DNA of 64,000 bases from Thermobaculum terrenum ATCC BAA-798 (GCF_000025005.1 NC_013526.1:248001-312000); one strand, 5' to 3'; positions 22,903 through 43,667 are shown, counted from the stretch's first letter. Translations and numbers: made by a program. The notes: a model not told the origin generated them from the sequence alone.

Positions 22903-23889
22903 TCAGGTCTCAAAGAGCGAGGCCGGAGGCAGCGAGCAGGCTACGCGTGCCAGCAACTCGTCGTTGGTAGGGATGCCGGCCAGCTCGTAGGCCAGCAGGA
23001 GCGCCCCCACCGCCGGCTCGAACCTGCTGAATACCGGCCGCACGTCGGGGTCGCTTGCCAGCACCCTGTCGATGATGGCCTGGGCCACCAGCTTGGATGG
23101 ATGCCTGATCACGCCGCCGGCCAGCACCAGGTAGAAGGGATCTTGGTCTATGCCCACCTGGTGGGCGGCCGCGAGCGCGTAGTCCCCAATGGCGCGCCCG
23201 TGCTCGAGCACTATCCGGAGGGCCGTGGGATCGCCCTCGACGGCGGTGTCGAGCAGGACCCTGGCGAAGGAGCCCAAGTTGTACCTGCGCCGGCTGCCCC
23301 TGGCAGTGAGAGCGTGCAGGAAGTCCTCCACGGACTCGGCCGCGAAATGCGCGAGCAACTTCTCCCTCAAGGCAGTGGGAGGGTCTATCCCCAGCTCGGC
23401 GCGCATCACCGCACGTAGGGCCTTGTGTCCCAGCTCCTGCGCGCCCTGGGGCTCCTGCCAGAAGCTGGTGTGCCAGATCTTGCCCTCTGGGCTGCGAGCG
23501 CCTATGGCCATGCCGGTCCCGCAGACCACCGAGACGCCCGTGCCATCGGGAGAGCCTGCCCTGAGCGCGCCTATGGCGTCGTTGTACACCTTGACCTGCT
23601 GCCCGTACCCGCGGGAGCGCACGTGGGACTCGAGGAGTTCGAAGTCCTCTGGCCAGTCGGCCCCTGCCAAGGAGAAGACCCCCGCGACCAGGGAGCCCGC
23701 CCCCACGCCCGCGCTGATGAGCGCCTGCTCGACGGCCCGATCGAGCTCCGCGAGCGCCGCCTCCTCCGAGGGCGCCCCATAGATGTCGCTGCAGCCCGAG
23801 CGCCCACTGCCGAGGATGCGGCCCTCCAGGTCGGCCACGAGCGCCACCGTCTTGGAGTTGCCGCCGTCCACCCCCAGCAAGTAGCTCAT
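22903..23889 (-). CDS. BadF/BadG-type ATPase, N-acetylglucosamine/glucosamine kinase-like
   Basis: ASKHA-fold kinase of 328 aa, most like eukaryotic-type N-acetylglucosamine kinase. The phosphate-1 motif Gly-Val-Asp-Gly-Gly-Asn-Ser-Lys-Thr is at residues 6-14, the phosphate-2 region is Val-Val-Cys-Gly-Thr-Gly-Met-Ala near 124, and the adenosine motif is Leu-Val-Leu-Ala-Gly-Gly-Val near 255. Likely reaction: ATP-dependent phosphorylation of glucosamine or N-acetylglucosamine at O6. It is the last gene of the 13-gene amino-sugar operon and starts 3 bases after NagB, which would use glucosamine-6-phosphate. With no NagA deacetylase in the operon, glucosamine itself is a good candidate substrate. 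Confidence 0.85.
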   Translation of the reverse strand: MSYLLGVDGGNSKTVALVADLEGRILGSGRSGCSDIYGAPSEEAALAELDRAVEQALISAGVGAGSLVAGVFSLAGADWPEDFELLESHVRSRGYGQQVKVYNDAIGALRAGSPDGTGVSVVCGTGMAIGARSPEGKIWHTSFWQEPQGAQELGHKALRAVMRAELGIDPPTALREKLLAHFAAESVEDFLHALTARGSRRRYNLGSFARVLLDTAVEGDPTALRIVLEHGRAIGDYALAAAHQVGIDQDPFYLVLAGGVIRHPSKLVAQAIIDRVLASDPDVRPVFSRFEPAVGALLLAYELAGIPTNDELLARVACSLPPASLFET

Positions 23890-23892
23890 ACG

Positions 23893-24615
23893 CTACCTCC
23901 CCCACGCCTCCCGGTCCGCCAGCACCGTCACCTGCGTCAGCCCCTGCAGGTACGAGGCCGGCACCTCGGGAGTTATCTGTCCCTGGAGGGCCTTGCGGAG
24001 GATCTCCCTCTTGTGGCGCCCGGAGGCTAGCAGGAGGATCTTGCGCGCGGCAAGGAGCTGGGTCATCCCCGCCGTCAGCGCCCTGCGGGGTACCCGCTCG
24101 ATATCTCCCCAATAGGTGGCGTTGCTCTCCAGGCTGGCCTCCGTCAGCTCGACGGCCCGCGTGGGCGCCGCGCTATCTGAGGGGGGCTCGTTAAACCCCA
24201 GGTGGCCGTTGGGCCCCAGCCCCAGGATCACCAGGTCGTAACCTCCCCATGCCTCGACGGTCCTGTCGTACTCCTGGCACTCGCGTTCGATATCGCACGC
24301 ATCCCCGTGGAAGCGGTTTACCCTGGAGGGAGGTATGCCCAGAGGATCCAGGAAGGACCTCCGCAGCCAGCCGTAGAGGGACCTGGGGTCATCATCCGAC
24401 ACGCCCAGGTATTCGTCCAGCTGGCAGACCCGTATTTGCGAGGTGTCGAGCTCTCCCTCTTGCTTCATCTCCGCCAACCTGCGGTAGGCTCCCATCGGCG
24501 TGTTGCCCATCGCCGGCACCACCACGGCATCGGGCTTGGAGCGTATCTCCGAGGCGATCAGCTCGGCAGCTAGCTCGTGCATCTCATCGGCATCTCTTGT
24601 GATCACCAACCTCAT
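23893..24615 (-). CDS. nagB: Glucosamine-6-phosphate deaminase
   Basis: Converts glucosamine-6-phosphate to fructose-6-phosphate and ammonia, 240 aa, cytoplasmic. The NagB signature is clear: Ala-Met-Gly-Asn-Thr-Pro-Met-Gly, Leu-Asp-Glu-Tyr-Leu-Gly (catalytic Asp), Gly-Leu-Gly-Pro-Asn-Gly-His-Leu-Gly-Phe-Asn-Glu-Pro and Ala-Ser-Gly-Arg-His-Lys. The length is that of short bacterial NagB, without the allosteric C-terminal extension of the E. coli enzyme. It lies between a GH4 gene (4-base gap) and a sugar kinase (3-base gap), so the three are translated as a unit. It is the key evidence that the large operon handles amino sugars. Confidence 0.93.
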   Translation of the reverse strand: MRLVITRDADEMHELAAELIASEIRSKPDAVVVPAMGNTPMGAYRRLAEMKQEGELDTSQIRVCQLDEYLGVSDDDPRSLYGWLRRSFLDPLGIPPSRVNRFHGDACDIERECQEYDRTVEAWGGYDLVILGLGPNGHLGFNEPPSDSAAPTRAVELTEASLESNATYWGDIERVPRRALTAGMTQLLAARKILLLASGRHKREILRKALQGQITPEVPASYLQGLTQVTVLADREAWGR

Positions 24616-24619
24616 GCCC

Positions 24620-25918
24620 TCACCTCAGCAGCCGCTCAGGCAGGTAGTCCCTCAGCGCCGCGGCCATCTCGTCGTAGATCCTCTCAGCCTTCTCCAGCGA
24701 GAAGCAGAGCGGGTTGCTGGCCAGCGCTCGGATCGCGTCCTTCCGGGTGCCACACCATGCCGCCTCCGCGGCCAGCGCCTGGTACTCCCCCAGCATCTTC
24801 ACCAGGCCGGACACGTGCCTGGGCAGCGAGCCCTGAGGTATGGGCTGTATGCCCTCCCCGCTCACCCTGCCCGGCACCTCCACCACCCGGTCGTCGGGGA
24901 AGTCGGCGATGGCGCCGTGGTTGGGGACGTTCACCGGCCAGACCTCGTCCTTCTGGTTGAAGATGGCGTCCATGACGTCTATGGCCAGCTCCAGCTCGTG
25001 GATGCCCCCGCGCGACCTCGATGGGTCGAGCTGTGGGTCCTCGGCCTCTGCCTGCTCTCGGTAGTGTTGCCAGTAGTCCGGCACCCAGCTCATGATGTCC
25101 TGCGCCCTCGTCGTGGGCTTGTTGCGGAGTTCCTCCAGCACCTCGTCCTTGAAGTAGTAGTACTGGAAGTACGACGCCGGGATGGACTCCATGAGCGCGG
25201 CCAGCTTGAGCCACCTCAGGCCGTGGACGTCCGCAGAGGGATCGTCCTTCATCCGCTCATACGCCTCCTGCAAGAGGGGGATCATGTCCTGTCCATCGTA
25301 GAGGTGCTTGATGCTCCAACAGCCGTGGTTGAGGCCGATCATCGTCGCGTCGACCTTGTCCGGGTCCAGCCCCGCGACCTCCGCTACGTGCCGTGGGAAT
25401 ATTATGGGCCCCTCGCACAGGGACACCGTACGGATCTCGCTGTGGTGGGTGACCGCCTCAGACACTATGTTTATGGGGTTCGTGTAGTTGATCAGCCAGG
25501 CATTGGGGCACAGCTCCTCCATGTCCCGCACGATGCCCTGCATGACGTGGATGGTGCGCAGCGCCATGAAGAAGCCTCCCGGCCCCTGCGTCTCCTGTCC
25601 TATCACCCCGTGCTTGAGCGGCACGCTCTCATCGATGTAGCGCGCCTCAAAGCCCCCGGGCCTGAAGCTGGTGAGCACGGCGTCACAGTCCACCAGCGCT
25701 GCTCTCCTGTCGGTCGTGGCGGACACGCGGATGTCGAGCCCTCGGTTGCGGGCCATCTTCTCGGCGATCTTGCGCACGATCTCCAGGTGCTCTGCGTTGA
25801 GGTCGACCAGCACGACCTCTGAGCCGTTGAAGTTCTCGCCCTGATGGATGAAGGAGGCCATCGTGCCCGGGGCACGCGTGCTACCCCCACCTATGTAAGC
25901 CAGCTTGATGCTTGCCAT
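24620..25918 (-). CDS. Glycoside hydrolase family 4 (NAD- and Mn-dependent)
   Basis: GH4 glycosidase of 432 aa. The family cleaves glycosides by transient NAD oxidation at C3 followed by elimination, and needs Mn and reducing conditions. The Rossmann motif Gly-Gly-Gly-Ser-Thr-Arg-Ala-Pro-Gly opens the protein at residues 9-17. Later marks are Asn-Tyr-Thr-Asn-Pro-Ile-Asn-Ile-Val, the metal ligands Cys (Ser-Leu-Cys-Glu-Gly) and His (Gly-Leu-Asn-His-Gly), and a C-terminal Pro-Asn-His-Gly-Ala-Ile. The importer is ABC rather than PTS, so the substrate is probably not phosphorylated on entry; an alpha-glycoside or the product of the kinase are both possible. GAGGAGG precedes the ATG at 25918; the frame upstream to 26029 overlaps the next gene. 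Confidence 0.9.
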   Translation of the reverse strand: MASIKLAYIGGGSTRAPGTMASFIHQGENFNGSEVVLVDLNAEHLEIVRKIAEKMARNRGLDIRVSATTDRRAALVDCDAVLTSFRPGGFEARYIDESVPLKHGVIGQETQGPGGFFMALRTIHVMQGIVRDMEELCPNAWLINYTNPINIVSEAVTHHSEIRTVSLCEGPIIFPRHVAEVAGLDPDKVDATMIGLNHGCWSIKHLYDGQDMIPLLQEAYERMKDDPSADVHGLRWLKLAALMESIPASYFQYYYFKDEVLEELRNKPTTRAQDIMSWVPDYWQHYREQAEAEDPQLDPSRSRGGIHELELAIDVMDAIFNQKDEVWPVNVPNHGAIADFPDDRVVEVPGRVSGEGIQPIPQGSLPRHVSGLVKMLGEYQALAAEAAWCGTRKDAIRALASNPLCFSLEKAERIYDEMAAALRDYLPERLLR

Positions 25919-25959
25919 ATCTCCTCCTCGTGGTGATGTTACCATTTTGCCATAAAGGG

Positions 25960-26919
25960 TCACGCCAGCTCGGGCGCGCGCGACAGGGCTTTGGCCATCG
26001 CGCGGATGTAGGCGGCGTTCGCCCCGCAACAGCCACCTATATATTGTACGCCCTGGGAGATCGCCTGAGTTGCGAAGTCGGCGAACTCACGCCTGGAGAC
26101 CTGTATGGTCTCCAGGTCATCGGGGAACTGGGGCATGCGCGTGAAGCAAGGGGTATCGTCCGAGGTCCTGAAAGCCGCCGGCTGGGCGGCTATCGGCACG
26201 TCCACGGCTGCCCTCATCTGGAGCACTATGGGCAGCATCCTGCTCGGCTCCTGCTCGCAGTTGGCCCCGACTATATCGGCCCCAGCATCCACCATCGCGC
26301 GCGCGCACTCCGCGGGGGTGTAACCGTCCGAGCTCTCGGTAGTCTTGGGCCTGAAGCTCATGGTGGCCATGACCGGGAGGCCGCAGTCGCGAGCGCACTC
26401 CAGTGCTATGAGCATCTCCTGCAGGTGGAAGAAGGTCTCCAGGATCAGGAAGTCCACCCCAGCGCTTGTAAGGATGCGTATCTGCTCGGCGATCAGATCC
26501 CGGGCGTGCTCTCGGGCGGCTGGCCCCTCCCGCTCAAAGAGCTGGGTTCGAGCCACTGAGGCGGCCACCAAAGCACGCTCCCCTGCCACCTCTCGGGCTA
26601 TGCGCACCGCTGCTATGTTTATCGCCTCCGTCTGGGGACCGTAGCCCGCTCGCGAGAGCTTCTCCCTGGTGGCAAAGAACGTCAGCGCTTGCAGCACCTG
26701 CGATCCAGCCATCAGGAACTCCGTGTGCAGCTCTCTCAGAGCGTCCGGGTGCTCTATGGCTACCTCCGGGGTGTACTGGCCACTACCCTTGCCCGTGCCC
26801 ACCTTCTCCCGATCCGAGCCGCTCTGGACGTATCCTCTCCTCTCCAGCTCGATGAGGTAGCCTCCGTCGCCCAGGATATAGCCCTGGTGCCTTATGATCT
26901 CCAGTGGATTTCTCGCCAT
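25960..26919 (-). CDS. Homocysteine S-methyltransferase family protein
   Basis: Zinc methyltransferase of 319 aa, resembling betaine-homocysteine methyltransferase and the N-terminal domain of methionine synthase. The zinc ligands are Cys of Gly-Ala-Asn-Cys (about residue 219) and the pair in Gly-Gly-Cys-Cys-Gly (about 297-301); Leu-Glu-Thr-Phe-Phe and Met-Ser-Phe-Arg are family strands. The barrel is complete and cytoplasmic. It sits in the middle of the amino-sugar operon, 12 bases after an oxidoreductase, which is unexpected: either the imported substrate carries a methyl group that is removed, or the gene supplies methionine. The methyl donor cannot be read from the sequence. Confidence 0.85.
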   Translation of the reverse strand: MARNPLEIIRHQGYILGDGGYLIELERRGYVQSGSDREKVGTGKGSGQYTPEVAIEHPDALRELHTEFLMAGSQVLQALTFFATREKLSRAGYGPQTEAINIAAVRIAREVAGERALVAASVARTQLFEREGPAAREHARDLIAEQIRILTSAGVDFLILETFFHLQEMLIALECARDCGLPVMATMSFRPKTTESSDGYTPAECARAMVDAGADIVGANCEQEPSRMLPIVLQMRAAVDVPIAAQPAAFRTSDDTPCFTRMPQFPDDLETIQVSRREFADFATQAISQGVQYIGGCCGANAAYIRAMAKALSRAPELA

Positions 26920-26931
26920 CGTCTTCTCCTG

Positions 26932-28089
26932 TTAAGGTAGGTTGAAAGTGCTCTCCAGGTGCTGCGCCCTGCCGGTACGCGCTGCGACATAACCCTTCTC
27001 GATGATCTCCACCACGTGTGCGGCGTGTTCCCCAGATGGTATGGGATCCTTGTCGGCCATGATGCAATCCACGAGGTGCATGATGTCCGCGTAGACGTGG
27101 GGCTCAGGTATGGCGGCGTGACGTGCGTCCACGTAGGGCAGCCAGCTATCAGGTAGATACTCCCCCTCCCTCTCGCCCCCGATCTCGGCCAGCCCGTGGC
27201 TGGAGGTTATGTACAGCCTGCTGGGGTGGCCCGACAAAGGCTCTATCTCCAGGGTCTCGATAGCCCCCTCGGAGCCGTATATGCCCATCGATCCCCATGT
27301 GACCAGCCTGCCGGTCATGCAGCTGTGGCCCCCTGCCACGGCGAACGTGGAGTCCCCGAAATCCAGCATCAGCAGGCTGTTGTCATCCACCTCCAGCTGT
27401 ATGGTCTTGTCCCTCCATTGACGCGTCGGGACAGCTATCCCGCTCATCGCCGCCACGCGCAGCGCGGGTCCAAGTATGCCCGTCAGGCTGTGGAGGACGT
27501 AGACCGTGACGTCCACCAGGGGCCCCCCGCCGGCCTTGTAGTACCAGGTGGGATCCACCGAGTGGAGCACGTCCTCCCCCTGCCTCTGGGGCTCGTAGTC
27601 GTGCCCCCAACCGCCGGTGCTCCCCCATGCCCAGTAGACCTTGCCCAGCGCGCCGCTCGCCACGAGCTCCCTCATCTTGCGTATGGAGGGCGATAGCATC
27701 TGCCCGGGCGCGGCCGCGAGCTTCAGGCCCAACCTGCGAGCGGTGCGCACCATCTCGGAGGCTTCTCTGTGCGTCGTCGCCATCGTCTTCTGGACGTAGA
27801 CGTGCTTGCCGGCCTGGAGCGCGCGCATCGCCAGCTCGTAGTGGAACGGGATAGGTGTGGCCACGATCACCAGGTCGAGGTCTCGCACGGCGATCAGCTC
27901 GCTGGGGTCGCTGAAGTACAGCGGCACGTCGAAGGCCTCCGCCGTCCTACGCGCCCGCTCCTCCACCACGTCGCATACCGCCAGCAGCTCGAGCCTCTCC
28001 CTTGCGTCCGGCTGCGTGATCTGGGGGAGTATGCCCATCAACGACAGGGCGCCACAACCTATCAAGCCTGCCCTAACTTGTGAGGACAT
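26932..28089 (-). CDS. Gfo/Idh/MocA-family oxidoreductase (third of three)
   Basis: NAD(P)-dependent sugar or inositol dehydrogenase-like protein of 385 aa. The Rossmann motif Gly-Leu-Ile-Gly-Cys-Gly-Ala is at residues 8-14. The conserved Glu-Lys-Pro motif is changed to Gln-Lys-Thr (about residues 97-99), keeping the lysine. The C-terminal beta-sheet domain includes a Gly-Gly-Pro-Leu-Val-Asp segment. Some members of this family are glycosidases (GH109), so both dehydrogenase and NAD-dependent glycosidase roles are open. It starts 21 bases downstream of the second permease gene. Confidence 0.9.
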   Translation of the reverse strand: MSSQVRAGLIGCGALSLMGILPQITQPDARERLELLAVCDVVEERARRTAEAFDVPLYFSDPSELIAVRDLDLVIVATPIPFHYELAMRALQAGKHVYVQKTMATTHREASEMVRTARRLGLKLAAAPGQMLSPSIRKMRELVASGALGKVYWAWGSTGGWGHDYEPQRQGEDVLHSVDPTWYYKAGGGPLVDVTVYVLHSLTGILGPALRVAAMSGIAVPTRQWRDKTIQLEVDDNSLLMLDFGDSTFAVAGGHSCMTGRLVTWGSMGIYGSEGAIETLEIEPLSGHPSRLYITSSHGLAEIGGEREGEYLPDSWLPYVDARHAAIPEPHVYADIMHLVDCIMADKDPIPSGEHAAHVVEIIEKGYVAARTGRAQHLESTFNLP

Positions 28090-28110
28090 AGCGCAACACC
28101 TCCAATTAGA

Positions 28111-29001
28111 TTAGCCTTTGATACCAGTCATGGTGATACCTTCCAGGAAGTAGCGCTGGGTGAACGCAAACAGCACGATCAGGGGCAGCGTGACCAAGGT
28201 CGATGCTGCCATGAGCAGATCCCAATCCGTGGTGCGTTGGGCCTTGAACGCGAACAGTCCCAGGCTTAGCGGGTACTTGTTGGGGTCCGACAGATATATG
28301 AGCGGCCCGAAGAAGTCATGCCAGGTGTACAGGCATGTGAACACGGCGGTGACCATCAGCGCCGGCTTGACCATGGGCAGCATGATCTGCCAGAAGATCC
28401 TGAACTCCCCAGCGCCGTCCACCTTGGCAGCTTCGGACAGCTCCCAAGGTATGCCCAGGAAGAACTGCCTGAGCATGAATATAAAGAATGCGTCACCCAA
28501 GAAGCGGGGCACGATCAAGGGCGTGTAGGTGCCTATCATGCCTAGCGCTTTGAACAGGACGTAAGTAGGGATGAATGTAACGATCGCAGGGATCATGAGC
28601 GTGGAAACGGTGATGGTGAACAACAGCCCCCTTCCAGGGAAACGCAGGCGCGCGAATCCGTACCCCACAGCTGCGCTAGAGACGACTGTCCCCAGAGTGA
28701 CGAGGCCAGAGTAGTAGATGCTGTTCCAGAGCATGCGGAAGTAGGGAAAACCGGGGTAAGTCATGGCTCTGGTGAAGTTATCCCAGTGGATGGGATCCGG
28801 CCACCACTTTATGGGTTGTGCGAAGATTTGAGCGTTATCCTTGAGGGCCGATATGATCATCCAGTAGAAGGGCAGCATAAAGATGGCTGAGACCGTTATC
28901 AGCGACAGGTGCCTCAGGAGCACCTTCAGCTGCCTCCTGCCGATCAGTCCTCTTCTGGTGGCGACGGTGGTGCTTGTTGCCTCTCGACGTGCTAGCTGCA
29001 T
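28111..29001 (-). CDS. Carbohydrate ABC transporter permease, MalG type
   Basis: Inner-membrane subunit of a CUT1-type sugar importer, 296 aa, with six transmembrane helices (first at about 32-52). The cytoplasmic EAA loop reads Glu-Ala-Ala-Lys-Val-Asp-Gly-Ala-Gly near residue 190, followed by Phe-Trp-Gln-Ile-Met-Leu-Pro, which docks to the ATPase. The C-terminus Gly-Ile-Thr-Met-Thr-Gly-Ile-Lys-Gly is typical of MalG relatives. It begins directly after the stop of the other permease. No ATPase gene is in the operon; a shared MsmK/UgpC-like ATPase elsewhere is usual for such systems. Confidence 0.95.
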   Translation of the reverse strand: MQLARREATSTTVATRRGLIGRRQLKVLLRHLSLITVSAIFMLPFYWMIISALKDNAQIFAQPIKWWPDPIHWDNFTRAMTYPGFPYFRMLWNSIYYSGLVTLGTVVSSAAVGYGFARLRFPGRGLLFTITVSTLMIPAIVTFIPTYVLFKALGMIGTYTPLIVPRFLGDAFFIFMLRQFFLGIPWELSEAAKVDGAGEFRIFWQIMLPMVKPALMVTAVFTCLYTWHDFFGPLIYLSDPNKYPLSLGLFAFKAQRTTDWDLLMAASTLVTLPLIVLFAFTQRYFLEGITMTGIKG

Positions 29002-29925
29002 CTATCTCTCCCCTCCCTCGTAGTACACCCACACCCTGGCTGAGCGAAAGATCACCAGGGTCACGAACAGCACCGCCAGGAACAGGATCACGGCGAGAGC
29101 CGAGGCGTAGCCCATGGAGAAGTAGCGGAAAGCGTTGCGGTAGATCAGCACCATGAACATCAGCGTGGAGTCCAGCGGCTCACCCGTGGTGCCGCCGATC
29201 ACGAACGCCGGCGTGAACACCTGGAAGGAGTAGATCACTCCCATTACTAGGTTGAACAGGATGACCGGGGAGAGCAGCGGCACGGTGACGTGCCGGAACT
29301 TCTGCCAAGCTCCTGCGCCATCGATCTCCGCGGCCTCCAGCAGCACCCTGGGTACCTCCTTCAAGCCGGCGAGAAAGATGAGGGCGCTCGTGCCAACCCC
29401 CCACAGGCTCAGGATGATGAGCGCGGGCTTGGACCATCTAGGGTCGGTCAGCCACCCCACCTCCGGCAGACCCACCATCCTTAGGAGGCTGTTGAGCAGT
29501 CCTCCCTCGGGGCTAAACATGAGGATGAACACGATCGTGCCCGCAACTGGGGGCACGAGGGCTGGAAGGTAGAACAGCGTGCGGTACATGCCTATAAACC
29601 GGGTGTTGGCGTTCAGGAGCAGCGCCAGCAGGAGCGCTATCACCAGGCTGAGCGGCACAGATACGAGGGCGTAGTACAGGCTGTTCTTGACCGAGATCCA
29701 GAAGTAGGGGTCGTTCGAGAACATGGTCCTATAGTTCTCTAGCCCCACCCACTTTGGTGGTTCTATGATGTTGTACCTGGTGAAGGAGAAGTAGAAGGCA
29801 GCTATTATCGGATAGCTGGTGAAGACCAGGAGGCTCGCTATCCAGGGCAGCACGAAGAGCAGCCCGGCGTAAGCCTCTCGCCTTCGTAGGGGACTATAGG
29901 AGCGATGACGTAGTTTAATGGCCAT
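29002..29925 (-). CDS. Carbohydrate ABC transporter permease, MalF/UgpA type
   Basis: First permease of the CUT1 importer, 307 aa, six helices (first at about 20-40: Gly-Leu-Leu-Phe-Val-Leu-Pro-Trp). The EAA loop is Glu-Ala-Ala-Glu-Ile-Asp-Gly-Ala-Gly followed by Phe-Arg-His-Val-Thr-Val-Pro. The ATG at 29925 has GGGGGAGAG before it and lies 20 bases after the binding protein stop; the longer frame to 30093 overlaps that gene and is spurious. Together with the MalG-type subunit it forms the transmembrane channel. Confidence 0.95.
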   Translation of the reverse strand: MAIKLRHRSYSPLRRREAYAGLLFVLPWIASLLVFTSYPIIAAFYFSFTRYNIIEPPKWVGLENYRTMFSNDPYFWISVKNSLYYALVSVPLSLVIALLLALLLNANTRFIGMYRTLFYLPALVPPVAGTIVFILMFSPEGGLLNSLLRMVGLPEVGWLTDPRWSKPALIILSLWGVGTSALIFLAGLKEVPRVLLEAAEIDGAGAWQKFRHVTVPLLSPVILFNLVMGVIYSFQVFTPAFVIGGTTGEPLDSTLMFMVLIYRNAFRYFSMGYASALAVILFLAVLFVTLVIFRSARVWVYYEGGER

Positions 29926-29945
29926 ATCTCTCCCCCTTGCCAGAC

Positions 29946-31349
29946 CTAGCCCTTGAGGGTCTTCTCTAGCTCGGCCTGGCAAGCCTTCTGGGCCTCGGCA
30001 AGGGCATCCTTGGGCTTGGCGGCCTTGCGCATGATGCGCTCTATGGCCCTCTGAAGCTGGTCTATGGCAAAGCTCTGTATTGGTGAGTCCCACATCGGGG
30101 TGGCGATCTCCTGCTGCTTCCGGAAGAAGTCCATTACCTGCTTAGCGAATGCATCCCCTCGTTTCTCCACCACGACCTTCGGCACCAAGTTCTTAGGGAC
30201 CTTCTTGTTGGTGGGCATATCTGGCACTGCAGCGAACCAGTCTTGCACGCCCTCCACGCTCATGAAGTCCAGGTACTTGAACGCCTCCTCCGGGTTGTTG
30301 GAGCCTTTCGGTATCGCCAGCCAGTTGGGCCAGTAGCCGGAGACCTGCTTGCTGCCGCTAGGACCAACCGGGATGTAGGCTACGTTCCACCTCTTGAGCT
30401 TGGCCTGCCCGAACGCATAGAAGTCTCCCATCATCCAACTGCCCTCGAGCATCATGGCCAACCTGCTGTTCTGGAAAGCTGGGGGCTGGCCCTTGCTGCC
30501 GGGATAACCTCCCCAAGCGCCCGAGTTCTGGACTTTCTGGATATCTCCTTTGTACTCCTCGTCAAGCCATGAGAGGAAGTACTCCATCATTTGGATGTTG
30601 TTCTCGGAGTCTATGGTGTATTTTTGGTTCTTTGCGTCGTAGATCTGGGAGCCGTTGAGTGCCGACCATATGGGGAGAACGTAGGGATCGGGGATGGGGA
30701 CGAAGCCTGCGGTCTCCAGCTTATCGCCTTGCCAGCGGGTGAACTCCTTAGATAGCTGCCTCATATCGTCCCAGGTCTTGGGGAACTTGGATGGGTCGGA
30801 CGGCACCCCCTTCTGTTCAAATAGCTCTTGGTTGTACCACATGCCGTAGGTGCCCGCCGTGACGGGTAGCCCGTACGTCTTGCCCCCGAACTGGCAGCTG
30901 GCAAGGATCGCCGCAGGCCAGTTATCCGTCTGGCAGTTCTGCGAGGTGGCCATCATCGCATCGAGCTCCAAGAGGGAGCCTCTCACTCCTAAGGCCACTG
31001 GCGTGTCCCATATCACCGTGGCGCTAGGTGGGTTGCCAGCTGCTATGCGCGCAAGCAACACCTCCACGAAGCTCTGATCACCCGTGTATCGAGTGACCTC
31101 GACGTCCACATTCGTATGCTCACCCTCGTACTTCTTCGCTATCTCCTGGTGGGCTTTGAAGTAGGTGTCCGAGCCTCCTGGTAGCCAGAAAGAGAGCTTT
31201 ACCTTCTGCCCCGAGGTGTTGCCCGCTGCCGGGGTCGAAGTGGGTGCCCTGGACCCGCACGCTGACAGTAGCAGCGCCGTGCTGCCTATCCCGATCAGGG
31301 ACATGAACCTACGTCGGCTCATCGTGAGAGAGTGCTTTTCCTGCCACAT
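29946..31349 (-). CDS. Extracellular sugar-binding lipoprotein (SBP family 1)
   Basis: Solute-binding lipoprotein of 467 aa for the CUT1 importer. The N-terminus has a twin-arginine-like Ser-Arg-Arg-Arg-Phe-Met followed by a hydrophobic stretch and the lipobox Leu-Leu-Ser-Ala-Cys at about residues 27-31, then a Thr/Pro/Ala linker. The mature part shows the family start Leu-Ser-Phe-Trp-Leu-Pro-Gly-Gly and many Trp/Tyr residues for sugar stacking. GGAGGAAGGAGC precedes the ATG at 31349; a second ATG at 31322 directly before the twin arginines is possible. The ligand is probably an amino sugar or a glycoside containing one, inferred from nagB in the operon. Confidence 0.93.
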   Translation of the reverse strand: MWQEKHSLTMSRRRFMSLIGIGSTALLLSACGSRAPTSTPAAGNTSGQKVKLSFWLPGGSDTYFKAHQEIAKKYEGEHTNVDVEVTRYTGDQSFVEVLLARIAAGNPPSATVIWDTPVALGVRGSLLELDAMMATSQNCQTDNWPAAILASCQFGGKTYGLPVTAGTYGMWYNQELFEQKGVPSDPSKFPKTWDDMRQLSKEFTRWQGDKLETAGFVPIPDPYVLPIWSALNGSQIYDAKNQKYTIDSENNIQMMEYFLSWLDEEYKGDIQKVQNSGAWGGYPGSKGQPPAFQNSRLAMMLEGSWMMGDFYAFGQAKLKRWNVAYIPVGPSGSKQVSGYWPNWLAIPKGSNNPEEAFKYLDFMSVEGVQDWFAAVPDMPTNKKVPKNLVPKVVVEKRGDAFAKQVMDFFRKQQEIATPMWDSPIQSFAIDQLQRAIERIMRKAAKPKDALAEAQKACQAELEKTLKG

Positions 31350-31408
31350 CTTATGTGCTCCTTCCTCCTGTTGAGAACTGCTAAGAGTCTTCTTTTTACC
31401 TCACGCCC

Positions 31409-32467
31409 TTAGGCTAGCTGTTGCGTGTAGCCACTTGCCGCGGATCTCTCTGCCCCTTTGATCACCTCCAGTACGTGAATGGCTTGTTGCAGGCTAAGGA
31501 TGGGTGGCTTACCGCTGGTGATGCAGTCCACCAGGTGCTCTACCCCCAGCAGGTGATCCGGTCCTTGCGCCCTGCCCCCGTGGTCCACCTTGAGGCTCTC
31601 CCACCCTCCACCCCTGCGCAGGAGAGCGACGGGTGCCGACACATCCAGGAGGCTCAGCCCTATGGTTCCGTCCAGCCCATAGATCTCCATCTCCGGAGAG
31701 CGTGTGTCCACCACGCAGTTGTTGGCGCTCACCACCGCGGTTACACCCACCTCCATCTCCAGCACCAGCTCCCAGCAGTCGTCCACCGCTATGGGCACCA
31801 ACTTGCCCGCAAACGGGCCCTCATCCACCACGAAAGCTTCGCGCGATCTATGGCTCATGGCTGCCACCTTCCTCACCGGGCCAAAGAGTCCCGTGAGCAC
31901 GTGCAGTGGGTACACCCCCATGTCCATGAGGGGACCTCCGCCCGGTGCGAAGAATGGGGTGGGATCTGAGGTATAGCCCCTCCAGGGAGGCACACCTCCA
32001 TACCCACGGGCGTGTACCAGGTGAACCTCTCCCACCGCTCCCCGCTCCAGCAGCCTCTGGACGTATCTAACCTGTGAGAAGAGCATCACCGATGGAGCGC
32101 ACACCACGACGAGACCTCTCCTAGAAGCCTCCTCGCGGATCCTCAGCGCATCCTCCAGCTCCGTGGCCACCGGCTTCTCAGAGTAGACGTGCTTGCCCGC
32201 CGCCAGGCAAGCTAGCGTGGCCTCAGCGTGCAGCTGGATCGGCGTCAGGTTGAGTACCGCATCGACCTCGGCCTCCCGCAGCATGCGTGCGTAGTCCGTG
32301 TACCAGGAAGGTATGCCGTAGGCTTCGGCCACGTGCCTAGCCCGCTGCGGGGACCTCCCACAGACCGCCACTAGCTCCACCCTGTCAGCGAGCCTGTGCA
32401 TCTCTGGCAGGTAATCTCGCTGTGCCACGTCTCCGCATCCCAGGAGCGCTAACTTGACCTTGCCCAC
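31409..32467 (-). CDS. Gfo/Idh/MocA-family oxidoreductase (second of three)
   Basis: NAD(P)-dependent oxidoreductase of 352 aa. Rossmann motif Leu-Leu-Gly-Cys-Gly-Asp-Val-Ala at residues 7-14, the Glu-Lys-Pro motif intact at about 95-97 (Ser-Glu-Lys-Pro-Val-Ala), and a C-terminal domain with Gly-Gly-Gly-Pro-Leu-Met-Asp-Met-Gly. The start is a GTG that shares its G with the last base of the upstream TAG (TAGTG), with GAGGAGGAGAG in front, which implies coupled translation with the ROK kinase. It probably oxidises, or reversibly oxidises during cleavage, the imported sugar. Confidence 0.9.
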   Translation of the reverse strand: MGKVKLALLGCGDVAQRDYLPEMHRLADRVELVAVCGRSPQRARHVAEAYGIPSWYTDYARMLREAEVDAVLNLTPIQLHAEATLACLAAGKHVYSEKPVATELEDALRIREEASRRGLVVVCAPSVMLFSQVRYVQRLLERGAVGEVHLVHARGYGGVPPWRGYTSDPTPFFAPGGGPLMDMGVYPLHVLTGLFGPVRKVAAMSHRSREAFVVDEGPFAGKLVPIAVDDCWELVLEMEVGVTAVVSANNCVVDTRSPEMEIYGLDGTIGLSLLDVSAPVALLRRGGGWESLKVDHGGRAQGPDHLLGVEHLVDCITSGKPPILSLQQAIHVLEVIKGAERSAASGYTQQLA

Positions 32468-33417
32468 TATCTCTCCTCCTCGTGGCCCACGCCGTGCGCA
32501 CGTCCCGCCCGCCAGCCCACAAGAGCGGCCCCTATCAAGCCCGCGTGTTCTCCCAGCTCGGAGCGCAAGATCTCCAGGCCACGCGTCTGCTCGCTCCAGA
32601 TGTGCTCGCGTGCGGACCTCACCATGTGCTCCCAGTAGGTGCCTCCGGCCGTGCCCAACCCACCGCCTATCACCACGACCTCGGGATCCAGGATGTTGAC
32701 CGCGAAACCTATCGCCCCACCCACCAGCTCGGCTGCACTGACGACAACTGCCCTAGCAGTCGCATTGCCCGCCTCCGCCAGCGCCAACACCTTCTCAGAG
32801 GTGGCTGCCGAGTCACCCGTCAGGTCGGCATACCTGCGCGCTATCGCGGGCCCCGAGGAGAACTCCTCTACCACCGTGACCGCGAAGCCTCCACACCGCT
32901 CGCACCAGCACGTGAGCTTGCCGCTGGCCAGCACCAGGGCGTTGCCCCTGGCTCCCCGGTAGGGCAGTCCACCCTGCACGAGCGTGCAGCTGATGCCGGT
33001 GCCTATTGTCACATACAGGAAGTTGTAGCACTTCCTGCCACTGCCATACCTGGCTTCGGCTAGCGCTGCCGCGCGCACGTCGGATTCCACGCCCGCAGGT
33101 GCGATACGGCCGAAGGACTCGGCGACGGGCACGTCTCGCCAGTCGATTGTCTGGTTGCTGGTGATGGAGCCCTCGGGGCTCACAAGCTCCGGGACTCCCA
33201 CCCCGACCCCCGCAAGGCATGTCCCCGCCGCCAAGGCCTCCTCGGCCAACCTCCCCGCCAAGTCCAGGCATTTCCGGAGCACTGCCTCCCCGCCCATCTC
33301 GGGCTCCGTGGGCACCCTGTGCATGGATAAGACCCTGCCGCTGGTGATCTCCACTAGCCCCGCGGCTATCTTCGTGCCTCCCACGTCTATCCCTATGGCT
33401 ACCTCTCCCCCGCTCAT
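32467..33417 (-). CDS. ROK-family sugar kinase or regulator
   Basis: ROK protein of 316 aa, likely an ATP-dependent hexose or N-acylhexosamine kinase, since no helix-turn-helix precedes the ASKHA fold. The ATP motif Gly-Ile-Asp-Val-Gly-Gly-Thr-Lys is at residues 9-16 and Val-Thr-Ile-Gly-Thr-Gly-Ile-Ser near 136. The zinc-site segment reads Cys-Trp-Cys-Glu-Arg-Cys-Gly-Gly, a variant of the standard Cys-x-Cys-Gly-x-x-Gly-Cys. The ATG at 33417 overlaps the upstream cupin stop as ATGA; the frame upstream to 33813 runs through the cupin gene and is not coding. With the BadF kinase at 22903 the operon encodes two different sugar kinases. Confidence 0.9.
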   Translation of the reverse strand: MSGGEVAIGIDVGGTKIAAGLVEITSGRVLSMHRVPTEPEMGGEAVLRKCLDLAGRLAEEALAAGTCLAGVGVGVPELVSPEGSITSNQTIDWRDVPVAESFGRIAPAGVESDVRAAALAEARYGSGRKCYNFLYVTIGTGISCTLVQGGLPYRGARGNALVLASGKLTCWCERCGGFAVTVVEEFSSGPAIARRYADLTGDSAATSEKVLALAEAGNATARAVVVSAAELVGGAIGFAVNILDPEVVVIGGGLGTAGGTYWEHMVRSAREHIWSEQTRGLEILRSELGEHAGLIGAALVGWRAGRAHGVGHEEER

Positions 33418-34280
33418 GGCCTCTCCTTGTCCGGCAGATACGAAGGTGCGACTCCGAAGATGAACCTGGCCTGGGTGCCCGACAAGTTGTAGTACTGATG
33501 CGGGCAACCCTGCGGTACATAGAAGGCGTCTCCAGGGCTCAGCTCCGCCCAGACCTGCTCGCCACCATGGAGGGACCTGACGCTCATCTGCCCCGACAGC
33601 AGGTAGATGATCTCGTCGCCGCCGTGCGAGTGCATCTCCGAGCGCTTGCCCGGCAGCAGGTACCCCGTGCCGACCGTAAGGTGCTCGGTGGAGACCGCTA
33701 TGCCCAGCAGCAGCTGCCCGTGCTTGCCTTCCAGCCTCCACAGCAGGTCGGGCTCCCTTATGATCCGTATGCTGCTGCGACCCCTGGCCACGTCCTGGGC
33801 CATGGGCCAGCACCCTATGAGGTCGTCCTGGGAGTAGCTAGGGCTCTGCAGGAGGTCCTTCGTGCGGGCGTAGGCGCTGGACGTGCCCTGCGAGGGCGGC
33901 GGTGCGAAGATCTCCAGCACCGACAGCTCCGTCTCCCCGTAGCTGAAGCCGTGGTGCCAGGTGTCCTTGCGGAAGAAGGCGTACTCGCCCGGGTGCAGCA
34001 GGTGCACCTCGCCCCTCTCGGGATTGGACAGCACCAGCGTGCCGGAGAGCACGTAGTACACCTCGTCCGCCGCGAATATCGTCCTGTAGTCCGCCGAGTG
34101 CCTGAACGCCCCGCCCGGCGGCAGGTTGAAGACCAATTGGTGTATCAGGTCGCTGGAGACGTAGATACGGTCCGCCACCTCTCCGGAGACCTCGTCGCCC
34201 CACAGATGGCGAACCGCGGCGTTGGACGGGATGTAGGTAGGAGCATCGTACCTTGGGCGCGGTGACTGTACGTAGCTCAT
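33414..34280 (-). CDS. Double-cupin protein
   Basis: Bicupin of 288 aa. The first cupin (about residues 45-135) has Phe-Arg-His-Ser and Gly-Glu-Tyr-Ala-Phe-Phe-Arg-Lys-Asp-Thr-Trp-His-His; the second (about 185-275) has the full metal motif His-Ser-His-Gly-Gly-Asp-Glu-Ile-Ile-Tyr and Pro-Gln-Gly-Cys-Pro-His-Gln-Tyr. A role as metal-dependent isomerase, dioxygenase or sugar sensor is possible; I cannot choose. The ATG at 34280 overlaps the preceding oxidoreductase stop as ATGA, and its own stop overlaps the ROK start, so it is tightly tied to both in translation. Confidence 0.88.
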   Translation of the reverse strand: MSYVQSPRPRYDAPTYIPSNAAVRHLWGDEVSGEVADRIYVSSDLIHQLVFNLPPGGAFRHSADYRTIFAADEVYYVLSGTLVLSNPERGEVHLLHPGEYAFFRKDTWHHGFSYGETELSVLEIFAPPPSQGTSSAYARTKDLLQSPSYSQDDLIGCWPMAQDVARGRSSIRIIREPDLLWRLEGKHGQLLLGIAVSTEHLTVGTGYLLPGKRSEMHSHGGDEIIYLLSGQMSVRSLHGGEQVWAELSPGDAFYVPQGCPHQYYNLSGTQARFIFGVAPSYLPDKERP

Positions 34281-35386
34281 TCTTCCCTCGTCGGATCGTG
34301 TCTCAGGTGGGCGGCCACCGTCTCGTGTTCGAGATCGAACCTCGGGGGCTCGAAGCTGCTCTCTATCTCCTTGGCGGTGCCGTCTCGGCCGGATTCCATG
34401 GCCTTGACCATGATCTCCAGCACGTGGTAGGCGTGTTGCGGCCTGATAATGGGAGTCCTGTTCTCCAGGATGCACTCCACCAGGTGCCTGAGGCCGTCCG
34501 TCCAGTGCCAGAGGGATCGCTGCTCGTACACCCTCCAGCAACCGTCGGCGTTGCGCCATAGCTCGTACCCCTGGGGGTTCCAATCCTCGCCGATCATCTG
34601 GATGGTGCCCTCGGTACCGTAGAGCTCTATCCCCGGCACCCTGTATCTTTGGATGGTGAAGCCCGTCGTGACCACCGCGAAGGTGGCCTCCCCGAAGTCG
34701 ATCAGGATCTGGAAGTTGTCCTCGGTCTGCACGTCGATCAGCTCACCATCCACCTCCCTCCTGGGGATGGCAATGCCGCTCATCGCCATCACCCTCCTGG
34801 CGGGCCCCAGCAGGCCGGTCAGGGAGGTGACGTTGTACACTCCCAGGTCGAACAACGGCCCACCTCCGGGGAGGTAGTACCACCTGCCCCAGAACGGGCC
34901 CGCCCACCCGTAGAAGGCGCGCGCCAGGTGCACCTGGCCGATGTCGCCGGCGTGCACCCGGCGCCACATCTCCTGGAAGGTCTCGCTGAGGATCACGTGC
35001 GGCGCGCACAACAGGAAGCCCTTGCTGGTCTCGGATATCCTGACGATCTCCGCCGCCTCCTCGAGGTCCATCGACATGGGTTTCTCGACCAGCACGTGCT
35101 TGCCGGCCTCCAGCGCGGCGCGTGCCACCCTGCCGTGCGCCTGCATGGCGGTGAGCACCAGCACCAGGTCCACCTCGTCGGAGGCGAGCACCTCCTCGAA
35201 ATCGGTCGTCGTGCGCTTGATGTCGAACTTCTCCTGGGCTGCGGCGGCCTTCGAGGCATCGAGGTCGCACGCGTACACGAGCTCCAGTGGGTACCGCTGT
35301 AGCTGCAGCCGCTGCACCAACGGCAGGTACGCCCCCATGGCCACGCTGCCACACCCTATCACACCGATCTTGACTGCATTCTCCAC
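34277..35386 (-). CDS. Gfo/Idh/MocA-family oxidoreductase (first of three)
   Basis: NAD(P)-dependent oxidoreductase of 369 aa. Rossmann motif Gly-Val-Ile-Gly-Cys-Gly-Ser-Val-Ala at residues 8-16, Glu-Lys-Pro motif intact at about 103-105 (Val-Glu-Lys-Pro-Met), and Gly-Gly-Gly-Pro-Leu-Phe-Asp-Leu-Gly in the C-terminal domain. It is the first enzyme gene after the regulator (24-base gap) and overlaps the cupin by 4 bases. AAGGAGGTTCTGG stands before the ATG. The three paralogues in this operon differ widely from one another, so they probably act on successive intermediates rather than being recent duplicates. Confidence 0.9.
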   Translation of the reverse strand: MENAVKIGVIGCGSVAMGAYLPLVQRLQLQRYPLELVYACDLDASKAAAAQEKFDIKRTTTDFEEVLASDEVDLVLVLTAMQAHGRVARAALEAGKHVLVEKPMSMDLEEAAEIVRISETSKGFLLCAPHVILSETFQEMWRRVHAGDIGQVHLARAFYGWAGPFWGRWYYLPGGGPLFDLGVYNVTSLTGLLGPARRVMAMSGIAIPRREVDGELIDVQTEDNFQILIDFGEATFAVVTTGFTIQRYRVPGIELYGTEGTIQMIGEDWNPQGYELWRNADGCWRVYEQRSLWHWTDGLRHLVECILENRTPIIRPQHAYHVLEIMVKAMESGRDGTAKEIESSFEPPRFDLEHETVAAHLRHDPTREE

Positions 35387-35410
35387 CCCAGAACCTCCTT
35401 AGAAGAATGA

Positions 35411-36220
35411 TTACTCGACCAACAGGCTTACCACGGCGGTCGTCTTGTCCGAGGCAGGACGGGCACGCTCGCTCTGCAGCTCGAACTTCACCCTGTCGCC
35501 TCGGTAGATGGCCTTGGAGTACTCCACGGCCTTGCCGTCCTCAGAATAGGTTACCCCCTCCATCACTATCACCCCTATGGGGCGCGCCAGGCCGAACTGC
35601 TCGAGCTCGTACTCATTGGCCACCGAGGCCTCTATGGTCTGGTGGGCGCCAGCGATGGTGAGGCCGTAGCGTGACTCCATCAGCCCGTAGATCGAGCTGT
35701 TGCTCAGATCGTAGTCCTCCAGCCCCGGGCACAAGGCCTGGGGCACGTACGTGGTCTCCAGCAGGATGGGGTCGTCGTTGGCGTACCGCAGCCTCGTCAC
35801 CTTGATCACGGCCTCGCCATCGCTCATCCCGAGCATCGCCGCCACGTAGGGAGGGGCGTCGATCACCCTCTGCTCCAGCACGCGGGAGTGCGCCCTGCCC
35901 CCCTGGCGCAGGACCTCTTCGGTGAAGCCCAGCAGGTGCAGCACCGGATGCGTGCGCTTGGGCTCGGCCACGAACGTCCCCACGCCGGGCCGCACGGTGA
36001 CCAGGCCCTCGCGCACGAGGTAGCTCAGGGCCTGCCTGGCGGTCATGCGGCTGATACCCGCCTGCTCGCTCATCTCGCGCTCCCCGGGCAGCCTGTCGCC
36101 GGGGCGCAGGTTCCCTGCCAGGATGCTCTCGCGGATGAGCTCGGCGAGCTGGTAGTAGAGGGGGACGGGACTGTCCTTATCCAGCGAGCTCAACTTCAGC
36201 GTCTTGGTCTGTGCCTGCAT
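35411..36220 (-). CDS. GntR-family regulator, HutC/NagR subfamily (UTRA domain)
   Basis: Transcription factor of 269 aa. An N-terminal winged helix (about 17-88: Pro-Leu-Tyr-Tyr-Gln-Leu...Arg-Leu-Pro-Gly-Glu-Arg-Glu-Met-Ser...Ser-Arg-Met-Thr-Ala-Arg-Gln-Ala-Leu) is joined to a C-terminal UTRA sugar-phosphate-binding domain (about 105-245). NagR and DasR in this subfamily bind glucosamine- or N-acetylglucosamine-6-phosphate and release DNA. It is the first gene of the amino-sugar operon and an operator of the matching type lies 36-45 bases upstream of its start, so it probably represses the operon and itself. The inducer is inferred from nagB. Confidence 0.92.
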   Translation of the reverse strand: MQAQTKTLKLSSLDKDSPVPLYYQLAELIRESILAGNLRPGDRLPGEREMSEQAGISRMTARQALSYLVREGLVTVRPGVGTFVAEPKRTHPVLHLLGFTEEVLRQGGRAHSRVLEQRVIDAPPYVAAMLGMSDGEAVIKVTRLRYANDDPILLETTYVPQALCPGLEDYDLSNSSIYGLMESRYGLTIAGAHQTIEASVANEYELEQFGLARPIGVIVMEGVTYSEDGKAVEYSKAIYRGDRVKFELQSERARPASDKTTAVVSLLVE

Positions 36221-36238: not shown

Positions 36239-36266
36239 CGGTATATAGATATAGAGGTCTATACCG
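36239..36266. promoter_or_regulatory. DasR/NagR-like operator upstream of GntR gene
   Basis: The core GGTCTATACC (36256-36265) matches the GGTNTAGACC type of core found in DasR/NagR sites on one strand. It sits inside a perfect inverted repeat TATAGA-GG-TCTATA (36250-36263), which in turn lies in a wider one, CGGTATA (36239-36245) and TATACCG (36260-36266). Its place, 20-46 bases before the regulator start and in the gap shared with the divergent PPOX gene, fits autoregulation. I found no second copy in the operon. Confidence 0.6.
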
Positions 36267-36379
36267 GATTCTAATACAGCTGTGAACCTAAATCAATCCC
36301 CCTTGCAGGTGGGAATAAATTAGCTGCTAAACTGGTATTAGCATATAGGTGCAAAACCTAACACAACAAGGAGGTTTCT

Positions 36380-36794: not shown

Positions 36795-36825
36795 CCAAGG
36801 GGGGCTTGTGTCCCCCTTGGTGTTT
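36795..36825 (+). terminator. Intrinsic terminator of PPOX gene
   Basis: Perfect 9-base arms CCAAGGGGG / CCCCCTTGG around a short loop (36795-36820), followed by TGTTT. It starts right after the stop codon and separates the PPOX gene from the helicase gene. Confidence 0.8.
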
Positions 36826-36907
36826 CATAACGAGCCCTGGACATCTCCCCTTGCCCTACACTTTATTTTATAATGCCTTCACATATATCTATCCTGGGAG
36901 CGTGGGG

Positions 36908-39900: not shown

Positions 39901-40390
39901 GGACGAGATGAAGATATCTCCTCTGCCTCCCAAGTTGGTGGGCGCGGCTCTTGTGCTGCCTGCCGGCCTGCTGGCGGCCAGGGGCCAGGAGGTGGAGGTC
40001 TCTCCCGATGGTCGTGGCGAGGAGACCGAGCGCATCGCCATGGAGGCCGTAATGGAGGTCGAGAGGCGGCTGGGGTACCACCCGGTCGACGTCAGCTCCC
40101 GGAAGGTAGGTTACGACATAGAGTCGCGCGCGGAAGGGTCGGGTAAGCTGAGGTTCATCGAGGTCAAGGGCCGCAAGCTCGGTGCCGACACCATCACCGT
40201 CACGAAGAACGAGATCCTCACCTGCCTCAACAAGCCCGAGGACTACATCCTGGCGATCGTCCAGGTGGGCGAGGGAGAGCCGAAGGTCAGGTACCTGCGC
40301 AGTCCCTTCCAGAAAGAACTGGACTTCGGGGTCACCAGCGTGAACTACAGCCTGGCCGACCTGCTGGCCAGGTCCATGGACCCCTCCTGA
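36908..40390 (+). CDS. SNF2-type helicase with C-terminal DUF3883 nuclease-like domain (defence)
   Basis: Superfamily 2 DNA translocase of about 1160 aa. Motif I Asp-Pro-Gly-Ala-Gly-Lys-Thr lies near residue 131, Asp-Glu-Ala-His-Lys near 230, Thr-Ala-Thr-Pro-His near 268, Asp-Ala-Ala-Gly-Glu-Gly near 562 and Gly-Arg-Ile-His-Arg-Ile-Gly-Gln near 594. A coiled-coil insert (about 395-480) and a long middle region follow. The C-terminal 120 residues match DUF3883 and contain Gly-Tyr-Asp-Ile...Phe-Ile-Glu-Val-Lys-Gly, a PD-(D/E)xK-like Asp...Glu-x-Lys arrangement. No good ATG exists: TTG at 36908 has GGGAG 7 bases upstream; GTG at 36902 is in frame but too close to it. Followed by a DUF1156 methyltransferase and a DUF499 ATPase, it should be the translocase/nuclease arm of a restriction-like system. 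Confidence 0.88.
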   Translation: MARLEEITKGVRVKGLLSNGEVVTIRAADWRGSDALEVLYERDGNLGQEIIYRDMEDELEIVSEVEGFKFDADGSLFRLVSEALRIKLAYLFDPVLAVHTSLVEPLPHQITAVYDIMLRRQPLRFLLADDPGAGKTIMAGLLIKELVARGDVQRCLICCPGSLSEQWQDEMYRRFHMPFEIITRSDFESSLSGNPYEEKNFVISRMDHMARNDRILAKLRQTDWDIIVVDEAHKMSATYAGGEVHYTKRYHLGKLLSSITRHFLLMTATPHNGKDEDFQLFMALLDPDRFEGRYRKQAHSSDVSDLMRRMLKEDLLKFDGTPLFPERRSYTVEYDLSPEEMDLYLAVTDYVREEFNRADQLEGNKKYAVGFALTLLQRRLASSPEAIYQSLRRRRERLQKRLQEVQRSGSSPIIDLLEDIAQEDLDDLEEAPEEEQIEFENQVVDRASSAKTIAELEAEIEKLRDLEGMALDLVRSGNDRKWNELSNLLQSPHMLNPDGTRRKIIVFTEHLDTLRYLRKRISNLLGNDEAVVAIHGGMSREDRMRCQEEFVHNPDVHVLVATDAAGEGINLQRANLLVNYDLPWNPNRLEQRFGRIHRIGQTEVCHMWNLVAKGTREGEVYLTLLTKLDQQSKALGGKVFDVLGSLVFNNRPLRDILVEAIRYGDRPEVRQRLHRVIDTAMDVEHLRALIEQYALVHDSMDISQVRRIRQDMERAEARRLQPHFIGSFFVSAYQELGGSIMEREPGRYRIPYVPQRIRDHPSLAGKRRHIARSYERITFDKQLINVPGAPPAEFVCPGHPLLDTVIEIFLEGYRRLLTQGAVLVDPLDQGLEPRMLFYLEDALQDQRTDRSGGKMVISRRLHFVEVDEAGNIRHAGYAPYLDYRPLRDDEKPVVSDLLDREWLRSGEMQAMVLDYVVGKLSRQHLEEVRSYKQELVKKTMQEVRKRLLSEINYWDMRASELEAQEKQGRGNPNLNSERARQRADELRERLRRRTKELEDEMKISPLPPKLVGAALVLPAGLLAARGQEVEVSPDGRGEETERIAMEAVMEVERRLGYHPVDVSSRKVGYDIESRAEGSGKLRFIEVKGRKLGADTITVTKNEILTCLNKPEDYILAIVQVGEGEPKVRYLRSPFQKELDFGVTSVNYSLADLLARSMDPS

Positions 40391-40490
40391 GTTCCTAAAA
40401 TATCTTTTACCCGGGGCGGGTTTTCGGCATTTGTGCCATCTAGTGTATAATGATAAATTTTGCAACTAACTCTATCTATGGAGGCATCGA
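40391..40490 (+). promoter_or_regulatory. Weak terminator and -10-like element before the methyltransferase
   Basis: A 4-base-stem hairpin followed by TTTT (40410-40424) lies just past the helicase stop, and TATAAT (40446-40451) lies 40 bases before the GTG start. No clear -35 is present at 17 bases. The methyltransferase may therefore have its own promoter. The ribosome site GGAGG is at 40480-40484. Confidence 0.4.
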
Positions 40491-43304: not shown

Positions 43305-43410
43305 CGCCGCCGCAACGCGTGCGGTCAGCCAAGCCTTCGGGGTGAGAGGGCCTCATCTGCGGGGCCTGGCAGGGCCTGCACACCTAAATAGTTAGTAAGT
43401 CCAGCAGACA

Positions 43411-43445: not shown

Positions 43446-43522
43446 TCACTTTGCATGCCGTTTCGTATACTTTCGCATACAATGATGGAGCTTGGATCAA
43501 TCCGATTATGGAAGCCTTCTTG

Positions 43523-43596: not shown

Positions 43597-43667
43597 GTAC
43601 TCTGTTGTAATATATCGATATCTCTGTTTATGTGCGTGATCACGATGGTGTGGAAAGGATTCTGGCT

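Follow-up and report, generated by a model that had tools for sequence, protein, structure and literature searches.

Homocysteine methyltransferases of the BHMT/Bmt type take their methyl group from onium compounds, in which it is carried by a quaternary nitrogen or a sulfonium, as in betaine and DMSP (PMC12366255), and in BHMT the betaine is hydrogen-bonded by Tyr77 (PMC3871600). Operons for the use of GlcNAc and glucosamine (NagA-NagB-NagK; gam in Bacillus) bring together a NagB-type deaminase, a sugar kinase, a GntR/UTRA regulator and an importer, whereas 3-keto-glycoside and levoglucosan pathways (DgpA; LgdA-B1-B2-C; lacABC with DUF1080) employ DgpA-like Gfo proteins, and the levoglucosan and lactose routes have been described as opening glycosidic bonds via oxidation at C3 (PMC7676230, PMC9007349). 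The Thermobaculum terrenum locus described here shares the listed amino-sugar genes with the first type of operon and DgpA-like Gfo proteins with the second, and it contains a BHMT-like protein; however, it carries no NagA, adds a methyltransferase (HMT) and an oxidoreductase (Gfo1), and combines the DgpA-like proteins with a kinase for amino sugars, a deaminase and the methyltransferase. It is a real operon, and the conserved amino-sugar module around which it is built, which has a BHMT subfamily to itself, is solid.

The window analyzed is a 64,000-nucleotide stretch of the T. terrenum ATCC BAA-798 genome (NC_013526.1:248001-312000), which comprises 3.10 Mb in two contigs, C1 and C2 below (2,026,947 and 1,074,634 bases). 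Thirteen open reading frames, all on the minus strand, are packed closely over positions 22903-36220 of the window (Table 1), and their assignments rest, for all 13 genes, on Pfam, NCBIfam or PDB matches. A 24-nt gap separates the GntR/UTRA gene from gfo1; the Gfo1/bicupin and bicupin/ROK junctions are each 4-nt ATGA overlaps, and ROK and Gfo2 overlap by 1 nt at TAGTG. The widest gap, between Gfo2 and the sugar-binding protein (SBP), is 59-86 nt long, according to where the SBP starts; elsewhere the gaps are 0-41 nt or the genes overlap briefly (SBP-permease 1, 20 nt; permease 1-permease 2, 0; permease 2-Gfo3, 21; Gfo3-HMT, 12; HMT-GH4, 41; GH4-NagB, 4; NagB-BadF, 3). A reading made earlier from the DNA alone (the sequence-only reading) had proposed a thirteen-gene amino-sugar operon with tight overlaps, and all 13 genes, their overlaps and their assignments were confirmed; judged by the last two gaps, the nagB/kinase end does not look like a separate operon.

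Table 1. Features of the operon and its upstream region, in operon order (5′ to 3′), numbered from the first base of the window.
Feature	Position	Strand	Basis or remark
Promoter-like site TTGATT-17-TAGAAT, upstream of operon	36268..36296	-	Consensus match only
GntR/UTRA (HutC-type) regulator, gene 1	35411..36220	-	PF00392 + PF07702
Gfo1, Gfo/Idh/MocA oxidoreductase, core module gene	34277..35386	-	PF01408/PF22725
Bicupin, two Cupin_2 domains, accessory	33414..34280	-	PF07883 x2
ROK-family sugar kinase, core module gene	32467..33417	-	PF00480
Gfo2, Gfo/Idh/MocA oxidoreductase, accessory	31409..32467	-	PF01408/PF22725
ABC sugar-binding protein (SBP)	29946..31322 (alternative start 31349 possible)	-	PF01547
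ABC permease 1	29002..29925	-	PF00528
ABC permease 2	28111..29001	-	PF00528
Gfo3, Gfo/Idh/MocA oxidoreductase, accompanies ABC form of module	26932..28089	-	PF01408
HMT, betaine-homocysteine-methyltransferase-like, module's defining gene	25960..26919	-	PF02574
HMT 13-residue insert DREKVGTGKGSGQ, residues 36-48	codons 26776..26814	-	Precedes rat BHMT Trp44 equivalent
GH4 glycosidase, 6-phospho-beta-glucosidase-like, accessory	24620..25918	-	PF02056 + PF11975
NagB-type glucosamine-6-phosphate deaminase, core function	23893..24615	-	PF01182
BadF/NagK-type sugar kinase, accessory	22903..23889	-	PF01869

Upstream of the operon, a NagR/DasR-like (dre-like) operator candidate, GGTATAGACC at 36256-36265, was rejected as not above chance, with 0.32 matches expected in the window and the reversed control pattern commoner in the genome. 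No inverted repeats were found in the promoter region or the Gfo2-SBP gap at the settings used, and the NCBIfam search returned no equivalog above cut-off for the regulator.

The best PDB match of the HMT was BHMT of rat and human (E 3e-54), and its AlphaFold2 (AF2) model (pLDDT 91.5) gave human and rat BHMT as the top Foldseek matches, with about 36% identity over the structural alignment. By sequence and model it is not of the MetH or MmuM type; it falls in the betaine/onium branch of PF02574, which supports an earlier proposal that the substrate is possibly methylated. Module HMTs formed a single clade on a long stem (SH-aLRT support 100), in a quick tree whose long branches make the placement of rat BHMT and the outgroup unsure. 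The predicted fold, a PF02574 TIM barrel, and the residues of the acceptor side are those of BHMT/Bmt: the zinc ligand equivalents Cys217, Cys299 and Cys300 and the homocysteine-site Glu159 equivalent were invariant among all 43 module HMTs, and the Asp26 equivalent was present in 42, with one gap. On the donor side the two differ; the Phe76 equivalent is kept, but Tyr77 is replaced by Phe in 43 of 43, and the Trp44 position, occupied by Phe or Tyr, directly follows a 13-residue insert (consensus xRExVGTGxGSGQ) that was in neither rat BHMT nor the sister sequences aligned. Additionally, the C-terminus is shorter (319 aa versus 407). Residues 38-47 have pLDDT <50, and the model leaves the insert as a mobile, disordered loop, as might be expected of a lid; that its GTGxGSG motif binds phosphate is a guess. 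The acceptor side thus appears BHMT-like and the donor side remodelled, and because of the Tyr77 replacement and the insert at the Trp44 region, the name of a betaine enzyme should not be applied; the protein is here called homocysteine methyltransferase-like.

To place the operon among related loci, ∼85,000 GTDB species genomes were scanned with two HMT peptide patterns, one spanning the end of the insert and slightly favoring its last residues, the other clear of it; neighboring genes were not used in the search. In total, 43 loci were obtained, 42 of them encoding module-type HMTs (62-76% identity) and spanning Chloroflexota, Acidobacteriota, Verrucomicrobiota and Planctomycetota. These 42 come from about 39 genomes: L055 and the G323 locus are one contig, L086 and L087 are near-identical, and three genomes contributed two loci each; most are from metagenome-assembled genomes, and some contigs are short. 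Counted within 7 kb of the HMT (the windows for transporters and NagA were equal or wider, reaching 9 and 12 kb), a ROK kinase was present in 38 of the 42 loci, with another ROK 8.5 kb away in the same gene run in L055; a Gfo1-type oxidoreductase in 31; and a transporter in 35 (EamA/DMT, 33; ABC, 2). An amino-sugar-phosphate deaminase was found in 28, either NagB (21) or an unrelated SIS deaminase of the GlmS/NagB-II kind (7), never both together; about one third of the loci show none close by, some contigs being short. NagA was near the HMT in none of the 42. HMT, Gfo1, ROK and deaminase are therefore a conserved module, and since the set recurs in distant phyla, its grouping in T. terrenum goes beyond chance, in keeping with the unusual amino-sugar enzyme set that had been proposed. 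Because two unrelated families fill one slot, deamination of an amino-sugar phosphate, or a very similar step, would be required. No relevant report of the module, of the gene combination or of amino-sugar demethylation via homocysteine was found in a literature search that covered few subscription journals, and the module is apparently undescribed to date.

Within the Chloroflexota, a search of 400 genomes found a 75%-identity form of the HMT in one other genome, the next group being at ≤50%; in the other genome with a close HMT, the gene lies beside orthologs of ROK, the binding protein, the permeases, Gfo1, NagB and Gfo3. Close Gfo1 homologs (E≤1e-75) occurred in two of the 400 genomes, exactly those that hold a module HMT. 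Orthologs of the SBP were present in L065 (69%) and L055 (38%), each permease had a 74% ortholog in L065, and both ABC-type loci have a Gfo3 ortholog directly upstream of the HMT (49% in L055, 70% in L065). Gfo3 was nevertheless dropped as a guide to the substrate, relatives of it being found in many unrelated Chloroflexota contexts; EamA carriers and Gfo proteins likewise carry little information on what is transported or oxidized.

This linkage bears on two readings in which the HMT has no part in sugar breakdown. NagB, two kinases, the GntR/UTRA regulator and the ABC importer would suit an ordinary glucosamine or chitosan-oligosaccharide operon, for which a deacetylase is not needed, with the HMT as a chance passenger; however, the HMT is the constant, its linkage is repeated at 42 loci that were located through the HMT sequence only, and the genome has an ordinary nagB-nagA pair elsewhere, so this reading is very improbable and the chance passenger was rejected. 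Alternatively, the HMT could serve methionine synthesis in general (as split MetH or BHMT) and merely be co-regulated with an amino-sugar operon, as split MetH systems of Phaeobacter use BHMT-like proteins (PMC12366255). We regard that as quite improbable: the sugar-gene linkage holds in 38 of 42 loci and in four phyla, the HMT has a specific insert, and housekeeping would not keep such a linkage. The genome also has a separate protein of the HMT/MTHFR type, encoded on C1, and the idea that the operon HMT is the sole homocysteine methyltransferase of the genome was rejected on that ground.

The earlier interest in a missing NagA stands for the operon but not for the genome. Among the genome sequences searched, nagA is present twice, once at C2:888195-889166, immediately downstream of a second nagB, and once at C1:1645428-1646462, adjoining genes read from sequence as MurQ- and NamZ-like and a BadF-like gene; the absence of NagA was thus rejected as a genome-wide clue. 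C1 carries one more NagB-family gene, probably a 6-phosphogluconolactonase. With nagA twice elsewhere, one copy after the second nagB, ordinary routes for GlcNAc and for cell-wall sugars probably exist apart from the operon.

The ROK protein belongs to PF00480 and, like its orthologs, keeps the catalytic Asp (DVRAAA), but the ExGH sugar motif and CxCGxxGCxE zinc motif of ROK hexokinases (glucokinase/GlcNAc kinase type) are replaced in it, and the ExGH/zinc motif is not conserved across 37 aligned ROK orthologs; the altered motif suggests a sugar that is unusual at its C1-C2 side. BadF scored 63 bits against NagK_SO3507, well below cut-off. NagB belongs to PF01182 and conserves LDEY and NGHLGFNEP, and scored 201 bits against TIGR00502, below its 237-bit equivalog cut-off, so its substrate is not certain.

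We tentatively read the operon, at somewhat less than an even chance, as containing a conserved module that breaks down an amino sugar bearing an onium-type methyl; the simplest candidate would be a hexosamine whose nitrogen is quaternary and N-methylated, for example N,N,N-trimethylglucosamine. We infer the substrate, the order of the steps and every reaction as follows. The ABC importer, or in other phyla an EamA/DMT carrier, would take up the sugar or its glycoside; redox chemistry at C3 would open glycosidic bonds, by GH4 and/or Gfo proteins in this operon and by Gfo1 with a tandem 3-keto-glycoside hydrolase in Verrucomicrobia; O6 would be phosphorylated by the ROK or BadF kinase; the HMT would transfer one methyl to zinc-bound homocysteine, yielding methionine; and the resulting tertiary amine could form the imine required by NagB (or the SIS deaminase), giving fructose 6-phosphate and a methylated amine. 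Demethylation may precede phosphorylation. A single HMT would be enough, chemically, because a quaternary nitrogen cannot form the C2 imine and one demethylation would lift the block. Trimethylglucosamine is natural, as part of Streptomyces TMG-chitotriomycin (PMC5480352); however, that source is one Streptomyces natural product, scarce for a module of four phyla. Against the pathway, no dimethylamine-use gene recurs near the module loci; the third of loci with no deaminase close by, and the predominance of metagenome-assembled genomes, also count against it. The fuller version, a widespread module for quaternary (trimethylated) amino sugars in which BHMT enzymes of a new subfamily, with a lid that binds the sugar, take one methyl from it (perhaps as the 6-phosphate) and so unlock deamination by NagB, with release of dimethylamine, is doubtful.

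The proposal of redox glycoside cleavage, part of the sequence-only reading, held in part. The nearest solved structure to both Gfo1 and Gfo3 is DgpA, and in 13 of the 42 loci a tandem 3-keto-disaccharide hydrolase (PF06439, DUF1080) adjoins Gfo1, in line or divergent; in the T. terrenum operon neither this hydrolase nor an LgdB-like isomerase-type eliminase was found. Its GH4 protein, with best PDB matches 5c3m and 1s6y, appears intact, the metal Cys/His and catalytic Tyr positions being kept in the alignment, and GH4 enzymes carry out an equivalent sequence of steps within one protein (PMC7676230, PMC9007349). GH109 and other NAD-dependent Gfo-fold glycosidases share the fold class and a plausible chemistry with the Gfo proteins, but no specific match to a GH109 model turned up in the libraries covered. 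The glucosamine configuration, repeated rounds of oxidation, elimination and reduction, and an O-methyl sugar remain unproven.

Cleavage of a glycoside would also suit a different source of the methyl group: an ordinary hexosamine imported as a glycoside or conjugate of an onium compound (a betaine, choline-like or sulfonium aglycone), with redox cleavage freeing the aglycone and the HMT demethylating it. The branching of the HMT with betaine-type enzymes, GH4, and Gfo1 with its tandem 3-keto hydrolase all favor this. No core partners were found around 19 sister BHMT-like loci (Chloroflexota), several of which adjoin genes read from sequence as dimethylglycine/amino-acid-oxidase-type flavoenzymes, consistent with betaine use; the module HMTs, unlike these, are surrounded by amino-sugar genes, a dimethylglycine dehydrogenase-like gene recurs in none of the module loci, and the remaining module ends at a sugar phosphate. 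We consider an onium aglycone unlikely. An O-methyl or S-methyl substrate, activated by oxidation of the adjacent position by a Gfo protein before the HMT takes the methyl for methionine, is improbable. The three Gfo proteins could provide the neighboring ketone, relatives of the HMT also use sulfonium donors (PMC12366255), and rhizopine (named in PMC7676230), an amino-inositol with an O-methyl group, is broken down with MocA, which lent its name to the Gfo family; however, genes for corrinoid proteins do not recur among the module loci. Additionally, plain ethers are poor methyl donors, and the PF02574 enzymes known to us depend on donors of the onium or methyl-corrinoid/folate kind.

On the fuller version, with a trimethylated amino sugar, no homocysteine methyltransferase before this HMT would, to our knowledge, have been shown to take a methyl group from a sugar during its catabolism, and an unrecognized environmental pool of such sugars would be implied. 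If the HMT demethylates an amino sugar, homocysteine methyltransferases gain a new donor class, and sugars from necromass are tied to the cycling of methionine and methylamines. Four phyla, all common in soils and waters, share the enzyme set, so its substrate is probably real and overlooked. The question is directly testable, since T. terrenum is a cultured thermophile whose proteins should be stable and easily purified.

Finally, GH4, the bicupin, Gfo2 and BadF of the T. terrenum operon lie outside the conserved core, each found in none of the 42 related loci, and the bicupin was rejected as a core member on this count. In another Chloroflexota genome (L134), the bicupin shares a locus with genes for ROK, Gfo, NagB-family and ABC proteins, but without an HMT.

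Two module HMTs (betaine-homocysteine-methyltransferase-like proteins) were present in a single genome, the Chloroflexia MAG YX1bin4 (loci L062 and L065); one was accompanied by Gfo1-ROK, and the other by ABC genes and Gfo3, along with a PfkB kinase and two further Gfo genes. The window operon resembles a fusion of the Gfo1-ROK form with the ABC/Gfo3 form. A euryarchaeal HMT homologue fell with the sister clade of BHMT-like proteins, and module genes were absent around its locus. In another Chloroflexota genome (L134, G292:C83), bicupin and ROK genes are divergent from ABC permease and NagB-family genes and a Gfo gene; the group lacks an HMT, and its arrangement is a possible hint as to what the bicupin does in amino-sugar use.

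Elsewhere in the Thermobaculum terrenum genome, a cluster containing nagA probably serves MurNAc/peptidoglycan recycling, judging from its sequence-derived gene names. The amino-sugar operon itself adjoins, in divergent orientation, defence genes assigned by PADLOC as a helicase (HmaA, 1590 bits), a DNA methylase (HmaB, 1215 bits), and an AAA+ ATPase (HmaC, 1044 bits).

Locations of features outside the operon
Feature	Location	Strand	Basis or match
BadF-like, MurQ-like, NamZ-like, nagA genes, clustered	G000:C1, L098 5240-9508		names read from sequence
HmaA-HmaB-HmaC anti-phage defence system	window 36806-46967	+	PADLOC
HMT homologue, euryarchaeal MAG	L097 3788-4657		52-54%
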